From Pelagibacteraceae bacterium AG-390-C22 (GTDB taxonomy: Bacteria; Pseudomonadota; Alphaproteobacteria; Pelagibacterales; Pelagibacteraceae), in the NCBI GenBank assembly GCA_003278125.1, contig QCGX01000003.1:1-64000 (forward strand): 64,000 bases of DNA, in the 5' to 3' direction. The translations under genes and the position numbers were made by a program. This document shows positions 50,191 to 53,382 of the stretch, piece after piece. The notes beneath the pieces are model-generated. The model did not search any database. It was not told where the DNA came from and worked only from the letters and a program-made list of their open reading frames with translations. How positions within the stretch are numbered: the stretch's first letter is position 1; each line of letters opens with the position of its first letter.

Positions 50191-51868
<1,678 letters not shown>

Positions 51869-51917: not shown

Positions 51918-51993
51918 GGGCCCTTAGCTCAGTTGGTAGAGCACCTCCCTTTTAAGGAGGGTGTCGATGGTTCGAGTCCATCAGGGCTCACCA
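51918..51993 (+). tRNA. tRNA-Lys (anticodon TTT)
   Basis: Complete cloverleaf: acceptor GGGCCCT with AGGGCTC (one G:T pair), D-arm AGCTCAGTTGGTAGAGC, anticodon stem CCTCC/GGAGG with loop CTTTTAA (TTT), T-arm GGTTCGAGTCC, discriminator A and encoded CCA. Its 3' 45 nt (51949-51993) recur exactly at 52495-52539, so it is the left attachment site of a small insertion. Confidence 0.97.
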
Positions 51994-52087
51994 CAATGAA
52001 CATATACAACGTTTATTTAAGTGGTGTACACCTCCCTAATTTGCTAAAATCATTGTGTGCACTTTTTGTGCTGAATTACGACTATTG

Positions 52088-52462
52088 ATGAAAAAAGATA
52101 ATAGAATAGATTTAAAAGATAAGAATGGGACTATTACCTCAATTATAATGGTAGGGTTATTAGTCTTTTTTGCTTATTTAAGTTTTTGGGTTTTACACGA
52201 TAATTTATCTTTCGAGACAGGAATATGTAAAAATTGTTTTGGTCCATTAAAAATATTAAATAACCCATTACCTTTTATATTTTTTATGGTCTCTTATATA
52301 ATTACTAGTCTTGCTATATTTAAATTTATACTTAAAAGTAAATACATTGAAACTGGATCTGCTGATAAAGAAAGTAAAGAAGATTTATCATCAAAAAGTA
52401 AATTCTATATTTTTGCAGTAACTCTCATAGTTGTGCTTATTTTATTAATTTTTTTTGATTAA
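52088..52462 (+). CDS. Unknown membrane protein carried by the tRNA-Lys mini-element
   Basis: 124 residues from the ATG at 52088; an in-frame GTG at 52055 adds 11 residues. Three hydrophobic helices are predicted (about 18-37, 63-84, 105-123). Between the first two is a short external or periplasmic loop with a CKNC motif at about 48-51. The second loop is charged (KES/KED-rich). I recognise no family. It is the only gene between the att-like repeats, so it probably arrived with the element. Confidence 0.65.
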   Translation: MKKDNRIDLKDKNGTITSIIMVGLLVFFAYLSFWVLHDNLSFETGICKNCFGPLKILNNPLPFIFFMVSYIITSLAIFKFILKSKYIETGSADKESKEDLSSKSKFYIFAVTLIVVLILLIFFD

Positions 52463-52494
52463 TACATAAAGCTAATAGTAACCTGTGATTGGTT

Positions 52495-52539
52495 CTTTTA
52501 AGGAGGGTGTCGATGGTTCGAGTCCATCAGGGCTCACCA
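52495..52539 (+). repeat. Duplicated 3' part of tRNA-Lys (right att site)
   Basis: Exact 45-nt copy of tRNA-Lys positions from the anticodon loop (CTTTTAA) to the terminal CCA. It lacks any adjoining acceptor 5' strand or D-arm, so it cannot fold into a tRNA. The flanks differ from those of the intact gene on both sides, which fixes the repeat boundary. Confidence 0.93.
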
Positions 52540-52548
52540 ATAACTATT

Positions 52549-53382
52549 TCATGCTTTGATTGGCGGGTATTCTATCATTACTTTGTTGATCCAACTTTTT
52601 AGGTTATCAATTCTTTTCGAGCTAGATGGGTGCGTGCTTAAAAACACTGGGGGTTCTTTACCTTTATTTTTTTCAGCCATTCTCTCCCAAAGTTTTACTG
52701 ACTCTCTGATATCATACCCAGCTAAAGATGAAAAAATTAAACCCAAATAATCGGCTTCTGTTTCTTGTTTTCTTCCAAAAGGATTAAAAATTCCTATTCT
52801 AAATATGTCCATTCCAGTATTTTGACCAATCGTATTTCTAGTTCTGTTAATTGCTCCACCTAAAAATATATCTGCTACTTGTGTTCCTATATTGATAGTC
52901 ATAGCTTGACTTGCTCTTTCTACAGAATGTTTTGCAACTGCGTGAGCAATTTCATGACCCATAACAATTGATAAGGCGTTAGTATTTTTTGTTATTTTTA
53001 ATAAACCTGTATATACCGCAATTTTACCACCAGGCATACACCAAGCATTAGCAACTTTATCATTATCAACTAATAAATAATCCCACCCAAAGTTTCTTGT
53101 TGGATCTTCTTCATTTTTATTTTCAAAAAAAGAACTAACAGAGACCTCAATCTTTTTACCTATTTCAATTACTTCTTTTAATTGTGGGCCACTTTTAATA
53201 AGTTTTGCTTTAGTTCTAAACTGCTCATAGGCAGCCGCAGCTTGACTATTGATTTTAGCCTCAGGAATAATCGAGAGTTGTTTTCTATCAGTAATAGGTA
53301 CTGTCGAACAAGAAGGAAGTATCAATGAACAACAACTACACCCAAATAAGCCAAGAAATTTTCTTCTATTTATGTTATACAT
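52549..53382 (-). CDS. M48-family metallopeptidase, Tat-type lipoprotein
   Basis: 277 residues. Zinc protease motif GHEIAH (H143, E144, H147), with the third ligand in QETEADYLGL (about 207-215). This is the LoiP/YcaL/BepA-like group acting in envelope protein quality control. The N-terminus has twin arginines (INRRKFLGLFG) and then a lipobox LPSC with C25, so it is predicted to be exported folded by Tat and acylated. Its 3' end lies 9 nt beyond the right att repeat. Confidence 0.88.
   Translation of the reverse strand: MYNINRRKFLGLFGCSCCSLILPSCSTVPITDRKQLSIIPEAKINSQAAAAYEQFRTKAKLIKSGPQLKEVIEIGKKIEVSVSSFFENKNEEDPTRNFGWDYLLVDNDKVANAWCMPGGKIAVYTGLLKITKNTNALSIVMGHEIAHAVAKHSVERASQAMTINIGTQVADIFLGGAINRTRNTIGQNTGMDIFRIGIFNPFGRKQETEADYLGLIFSSLAGYDIRESVKLWERMAEKNKGKEPPVFLSTHPSSSKRIDNLKSWINKVMIEYPPIKA

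Follow-up and report, generated by a model that had tools for sequence, protein, structure and literature searches.

A 546-bp integrase-less segment at tRNA-Lys of a SAR11-type bacterium, probably one of a set of cassettes moved by phage integrases

The first 64,000 nucleotides of contig QCGX01000003.1 from Pelagibacteraceae bacterium AG-390-C22 (assembly GCA_003278125.1), hereafter the window, contain an intact tRNA-Lys(TTT) gene (51918–51993, plus strand) whose 3′ part is repeated downstream, enclosing a short segment that is the subject of this study. The repeated 45-mer, CTTTTAAGGAGGGTGTCGATGGTTCGAGTCCATCAGGGCTCACCA, lies at 51949–51993, as the 3′ part of the intact gene, and at 52495–52539, as a displaced 3′ fragment, both on the plus strand and with no mismatch between the copies. 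No further copy occurs in the 1.04-Mb genome when up to three mismatches are allowed, and an exact repeat of this length is far beyond chance. The repeat, or core, begins within the anticodon loop with the letters CTTTTAA (51949–51955), which are essentially everything that phage attP sites have in common with this tRNA. Core to core, the insert measures 546 bp, 501 bp of which are not core, and a single open reading frame (ORF) of at least 60 amino acids (aa) lies between the two cores. Six phage integrases used as queries gave no match in the segment (E up to 1) or in the window (E up to 1e-3), and the whole genome holds one integrase-family match, inside a 321-aa frame. A previous sequence-only reading of this DNA had described exact 45-nt tRNA-Lys repeats around a segment of about 500 bp with one gene and no integrase, and this description was borne out in each respect. 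The locus has the tRNA 3′-end repeat at both borders and the intact tRNA on one side, as is typical of elements integrated into tRNA genes; the integrase of its own that marks the autonomous form was not found in it. From sequence comparisons, we consider it likely that the segment is an integrase-less cassette belonging to a set of units at tRNA-Lys, probably moved by a phage tyrosine integrase in trans.

The left core is followed by a stretch (51994–52087, plus strand) that is non-coding if the ORF starts at ATG 52088, and that may carry integrase arm sites. Within this left arm lie an arm-site-like palindrome, GGTGTACACC (52023–52032, without strand), with GTGTACAC also present in the left arms of the units of genomes G072 and G457 described below, and a 31-bp stretch (52052–52082, plus strand) resembling the right arm of phages of clade P2, which includes the site pair GTGTGC/TTGTGC at 11-bp spacing (52055–52072). 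The cargo ORF (52088–52462, plus strand) encodes 124 aa with hydrophobic stretches; an alternative GTG start at 52055 would make it 135 aa long. It is separated from the right core by a 32-bp spacer (52463–52494, plus strand) in which arm comparison and a site-pair search revealed no recognisable right arm. In the ORF list, the segment and its tRNA are bordered upstream by a plus-strand gene that we take to be of the tgt type (50753–51868) and downstream by a minus-strand gene that, following the earlier reading, presumably encodes an M48-type protease (52549–53382).

The same locus was read in the 29 congeners, out of 36 drawn, that gave a match in an M48 protein search. All 29 have a single core and no insert. 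The M48 match lies 7–18 bp from the core end in 27 of them and 143 and 174 bp from it in the remaining two, while the gap between the tgt match and tRNA-Lys is 47–71 bp in 27 of the 28 congeners in which it was measurable. The lone exception, G003 (L031; L069:4363-5172), has 948 bp between tgt and tRNA-Lys, with a 269-aa ORF in between. Across the window's genus (g1), the core was matched in 115 of 169 genomes, and two copies were present only in the window's genome. The segment is a precise and rare insertion. The tRNA integration footprint proposed from the sequence alone is supported by these empty sites and by other cargo at the same site, namely ten units on single contigs and one split unit in another genus, and a three-unit array. 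The opposite pattern, with all relatives carrying the same repeats and the same ORF, is clearly not what the genomes hold, since none of the 29 congeners has the insert.

An order-wide search of 397 genomes with the g1 core (at most three mismatches) retrieved two copies in G000, G072 and G240, and it undercounts genus g6 of the same family, whose core itself uses up all three mismatches. With its own core as query, g6 showed a match in 293 of 399 genomes and two copies in 11 (the counts are those of the genome table; the positions come from the g6 search for nine two-copy genomes and from the order-wide search for G072 and G240). Both copies lie on one contig in ten of the 11, 1778–2331 bp apart, and all ten units are located between the tgt and M48 matches with the intact tRNA-Lys first. 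The copies of the eleventh, G507, are split over two contigs, and this genome was excluded from the spacing figures. Sorting the unit ends by eye gave arm types, among them A and B, and a scan of GTDB genome contigs for the type-A right-arm pattern returned 12 stretches on 11 contigs, all from Pelagibacteraceae. Five of these contigs belong to genomes already counted (G436, G240, G457, G507 and G413); the new units include lengths of 1622 and 1644 bp. A tandem of three complete units (2197, 1946 and 2511 bp), with a core between each, is present in AG-343-O17. Names with the prefix AG- denote single-cell genomes according to an excerpt of PMC12416821; one such record is labelled as a metagenome-assembled genome. 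The window unit fits this set by its common attB, its 45-bp core and its placement between tgt and M48. As side observations, the third AG-343-O17 unit is separated from M48 by 1.3 kb that contain two ORFs but no additional core (L099:314-1636), and the unit of G557 (L079) contains a decayed 19-bp extra piece of tRNA-Lys core at unit position 1580–1598, as if two units had fused.

Units of this set have moved recently between hosts. The first AG-343-O17 unit, with an EcoRI-type system, is 99.73% identical to the G436 unit over 2242 bp, compared with 74.4% in the upstream flanks (1603 bp) and 74.6% in the downstream flanks (1837 bp). Because the left core of this unit carries the T-stem letters of G436, and the next core other, still pairing letters, a unit appears to bring its own tRNA 3′ half, with the exchange falling within the first 18 bp of the core. 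The two cores of G347 differ toward the 3′ end, which is consistent with exchange near the core start. In the window, strand exchange would have taken place in the first core bases, CTTTTAA, where the phage attP sites have CTTTTAA or CTTTTAAG in common with the tRNA.

Cargo was annotated by comparing 20 proteins with Pfam and 18, plus the window ORF, with PADLOC. It includes an EcoRI-family endonuclease (E 2e-102) with a methylase, another type II-like methylase with a restriction-enzyme-like fragment, PD-(D/E)XK/Cas4-like nucleases, a PIF1-like helicase, Sel1, MORN and PDZ proteins, and unknowns. Other PADLOC matches, such as that of a Sel1 protein to PtuA (E 1.5e-6), were too weak and were left unused. 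The six phage integrases detected no integrase-like sequence in the units (best E 0.73). G457, with type A arms, and G533, with type B arms, share a Sel1 gene at 95.4% identity over 738 bp, the flanks being 81.8% and 83.6% identical; this near-identity indicates that cargo crosses arm types. A motif resembling GGTGGGGTGATGA recurs right before or after cassette genes in L065, L066, L087 and L101, and may serve as a ribosome-binding site or mark where cargo genes were joined.

A search of the order (397 genomes besides its own) found one relative of the window ORF, 32% identical, in G359. There it lies in a 3.2-kb insert (L067:6744-9992) flanked by copies of the 5′ half of tRNA-Leu(TAA), beside a gene that looks Sel1/MORN-like by eye; no integrase was seen among the ORFs of this insert, and pairs of CTCGGAA sites at 11-bp spacing are found close to both of its ends. 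The tRNA-Leu core of the insert also occurs in the isolated pelagiphage HTVC105P and in phage S35-C6, in both cases with the integrase gene on one side, the RNA polymerase gene on the other and different arms, and the arm repeat of G359 is absent near the attP of HTVC105P, HTVC200P and S35-C6. We infer that the setting of the window's cargo gene is of this kind too, because its sole relative sits in an insert at tRNA-Leu that looks integrase-less and shares its core with a pelagiphage. Family matches of the window ORF were not used: those to Pfam had E-values of 0.044 or worse, PADLOC gave none, and the match to PHROG 38303, of unknown function (E 2.5e-4), covers mostly one hydrophobic stretch.

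Several phages with tyrosine integrases use the same tRNA-Lys. A 28-mer of the tRNA end is present in three viral contigs (L071–L073), and a comparison of tRNA-Lys with the phages collection gave 678 records, none of which reaches 90% identity at its best place. In L073 and, over 54 bp, in L072, the 3′ half-tRNA at the contig end is followed by host DNA of the M48 side, so that both look like prophage ends. Comparison of a 492-aa gene of L073 with phages retrieved terminase large subunits from 2637 records, none reaching 60% identity (24.6–28.1% in the 15 matches listed); we take these phages to be T7-like. Related integrases are encoded at eleven loci, three of which are repeats of L071–L073. 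Three of the four integrases compared with Pfam pass the cut-off for PF00589; that of L073 fails it, passes the cut-off for a SAM-like domain, and has no match in the phages collection at E 1e-5. The attP of the free phages L071, L089, L090, L092, L094 and L095 is TTACTTTTAA, and its overlap with the tRNA is CTTTTAA, or CTTTTAAG in L089 and L090. A whole tRNA-Lys lies about 0.3–0.4 kb from attP in L071, L090, L092, L094 and L095, while the L089 contig ends too soon for its presence to be judged. These five are, judging by this arrangement, probable cases of tRNA-dependent lysogeny in phages of SAR11-type hosts; the same arrangement received that name in actinobacteriophages, with tRNA-Lys-TTT as the commonest target in the table given (PMC10865867). 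The sequence-only reading had suggested a search for a phage attP containing the 45-mer. No exact copy of it was detected in the viral_contigs collection and the attP overlap is limited to 7–8 bp; what stands of the suggestion is that phages of that attP type integrate at this site and that other units hold the full core.

The arms of ten units and the window were scored against those of three phage clades (P1, P2 and P3), with 200 shuffles for each comparison, the shuffle counts being per single test. For type-A arms compared with P1, at most 4 of 200 shuffles scored as well in nine of 12 cases, with z up to 19.6 (right arm of G072). All four type-B right arms resemble P3 (0 of 200 shuffles as good) and, more weakly, P1. 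The left arm of the window resembles P2 (score 37, z 6.4, 0 of 200 shuffles), P3 weakly (8 of 200) and P1 not at all (161 of 200). A pair of similar sites at 11-bp spacing marks the phage right arm, 126 bp from the core in L071 and L073 (P1) and 136 bp from it in the six P2 and P3 phages examined. Among the units, 12 of 15 type-A right ends have the right pair 125–126 bp from the core, and three of four type-B ends have it at 131–132 bp; its distance agrees between type A and P1. Overall, 15 of the 20 entries with a right end, the window not among them, have a right arm with the pair 125–132 bp before the core; the strict pair pattern found none in G000, G240, G507b, G224 and AG343_2. A left pair follows the 45-bp core by 61–64 bp in nine of the 17 entries with a left end (61 bp in the window, 63–64 bp in eight others), the remaining eight having no left pair under the pattern used. 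In this survey G507a/b, L102, L103 and L108 are partial, and what appears as a left pair of L108 belongs to its right arm. Shuffling placed an 11-bp-spaced pair at the position it occupies in the window arm once in 20,000 trials, and anywhere in the arm 13 times in 20,000. Prophage L072, of clade P2, adjoins host DNA that is nearest to G024 of the window's genus (L029), with 96% identity over 99 bp including the core and 92.6% over the 54 bp past the core. Since the window left arm fits P2 and a P2 prophage adjoins g1-like host DNA, a fitting integrase may well reach the tRNA-Lys site in the window's genus. The foreign DNA of the window matched 16 phage records in short stretches, at E 0.1–0.5 only. 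Across 382 genomes of the family, the window's left arm has six weak matches outside its own genome, of 26–33 bp, all in g6.

A number of observations weigh against phage-mediated movement of these units, and against the window segment as one of them. The shuffle counts are uncorrected for the number of tests. Three type-A arms are less convincing matches to P1 (left arm of G072, 29 of 200 shuffles; left arm of G457, 15 of 200; right arm of G240, 9 of 200), and the type-B left arms are mixed, some fitting no clade clearly or the wrong one: that of G347 fits both P1 and P3, that of G533 fits P1, as does that of G224 (5 of 200), and that of G557 fits none. The best match of the window's left arm is the right arm of the phage, its likeness to the phage left arm being weak (25 of 500 shuffles), and the window's right spacer has neither a match to the arms of P1–P3 nor a site pair. 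The left pair also differs in its distance from the exchange point: it lies 58 bp after CTTTTAA in five of the six free phage attP (not in L071) and 61–64 bp after the core in units, that is, 38 bp and more further out when measured from CTTTTAA, because the tRNA half intervenes. The viral_contigs collection, which bears on packaging in helper virions but from which short or unclassified contigs may be missing, contains no type-A arm or junction pattern, and single-protein searches, which find close relatives only, retrieved no relative there for any of three cargo proteins, the window ORF being one. No second unit was detected among the 169 genomes of the window's genus, and a search of the same genomes for the P2 integrase, run without a positive control, returned none.

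The explanation that we prefer is that units of about 0.5–2.5 kb are inserted site-specifically at the tRNA-Lys anticodon loop of SAR11-type bacteria, each with some cargo and a 45-bp core that restores the tRNA, and the complete ones with two additional non-coding arms resembling the attP arms of phages that integrate in the same tRNA. The tyrosine integrase of such a phage would bind the unit arms and join the unit circle to the chromosomal CTTTTAA, excision being the reverse, and the unit may travel either by itself or linked to the phage. The window unit, which looks like the smallest of the set, retains a P2-like left arm and has no recognisable right arm, and so is probably a shortened, poorly mobile member, possibly stranded. 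A wider form of this explanation, in which we place only tentative confidence and which we regard as nearly evenly balanced, is a cassette system like that of integrons but lacking an integron integrase: the integrases of infecting phages would insert units that mimic attP arms into tRNA-Lys, stack them there and take them out again, with different arm types answering to different integrase clades and cargo swapped between arm types. A unit might instead move only with a phage integrated beside it, the pair being excised together (accretion) with no circle of its own. The window unit is att-bounded and no integrase was found in it, as expected of such a cis-mobilisable element; tandem units with a core between each are the expected product of accretion, which was also suggested for Dehalococcoides ssrA islands without integration modules (excerpts of PMC3146451). 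However, arms like those of phages flank complete units on both sides, although a passive passenger would have no use for them, and no phage-plus-unit junction was found in viral_contigs. We judge accretion unlikely, though a serious rival.

The sequence-only reading had left the choice between a collapsed prophage or island and a satellite moved in trans. The latter fits the set best, as our interpretation of the comparisons, while a prophage that lost nearly everything except its ends and one gene appears rather improbable, even if the window unit may be a stranded remnant. Prophages do occupy tRNA-Lys (L073 and L072), and the left arm of the window is phage-like. Nevertheless, phages of this type, which have no more than CTTTTAA(G) in common with the tRNA, would split it, whereas in the window the tRNA is whole and the cores are 45 bp long; the only relative of the window's ORF lies in the tRNA-Leu insert beside the Sel1/MORN-like gene, and similarly built units in other genomes carry non-phage cargo. 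Judged by flanks, cores and arms, movement by host XerC/XerD or by homologous recombination is very unlikely. The single integrase-family match in each of the unit-bearing genomes searched (G000, G072, G240 and G359) falls in a 320–325-aa, Xer-sized frame, but the unit arms resemble phage attP arms, and a transfer that leaves the unit 99.7% and the flanks 74% identical, with the break inside the core, does not resemble homologous recombination. An assembly artefact or a local duplication of the tRNA 3′ end is hardly credible: the genome is fragmented into 27 contigs, yet a single 108-kb contig contains both copies, and removal of the insert restores the arrangement of the 29 relatives.

These units share features with several known elements. 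Phage satellites (PICI, P4-like and PICMI) are likewise small, site-specifically integrated, thought to depend on phages and equipped with defence-type genes in their cargo; they encode an integrase by definition, at least as worded in an excerpt of PMC10803314, whereas none was found in the SAR11 units. The Dehalococcoides ssrA islands without an integration module have att repeats at an RNA gene, no integrase and tandem arrays (same excerpts of PMC3146451), unlike the SAR11 units in that the latter carry arms resembling phage attP and their presumed helpers are phages. In the streamlined planktonic bacterium Methylopumilus, the additive island fGI-2 at tRNA-Lys(CTT) shows recurring 20-nt tRNA-Lys repeats and sizes from 330 bp; it differs in the tRNA, the bacterial group, its extent of up to 42 kb and, in the passages of PMC10872708 used here, the lack of a tie to phage attP arms. 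The same passages describe tycheposons as tRNA-bounded cargo elements of marine plankton, of 4–200 kbp and with a tyrosine recombinase, neither of which applies to the window unit. Because no integrase was found in them, the units fall outside the definitions of satellites and tycheposons as given in these excerpts. CALIN are integron cassette arrays that lack an integrase and also depend on one from elsewhere (PMC11389934, in part); they use other recombination sites, and no attC search was made in the SAR11 units. On the phage side, mycobacteriophage attP and tRNA-Lys-TTT have 9–17 bp in common and the phage itself encodes this tRNA, as do five of the phages described here, and one mycobacteriophage subcluster includes both short-core phages and phages with a 45-bp core that rebuild the tRNA (parts of PMC10865867); unlike mycobacteriophages, the phages of SAR11-type hosts were seen only as metagenomic contigs. 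What sets these units apart as a variant of known elements is their phage-like arms, their small size, their occurrence in arrays and the match between arm types and phage clades. A literature search by title and opening of the abstract, a scope that did not include the original tycheposon and VEIME papers, found no description of integrase-less tRNA-Lys units in SAR11.

SAR11 bacteria are among the most abundant in the sea, and to our knowledge few mobile elements have been recognised in them. How their streamlined genomes exchange genes is a question for which an integrase-less cassette of about 2 kb, 99.7% identical across flanks of 74% identity, offers a candidate route. The phage side suggests that tRNA-dependent lysogeny exists outside actinobacteriophages, a prevalence elsewhere that its describers thought possible (PMC10865867, in part). 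Since some units carry restriction enzymes or nuclease-like genes, phage enzymes might spread defences against phages and, if the reading as a cassette system is true, the phages' own lysogeny enzyme would be what spreads restriction systems and other cargo.
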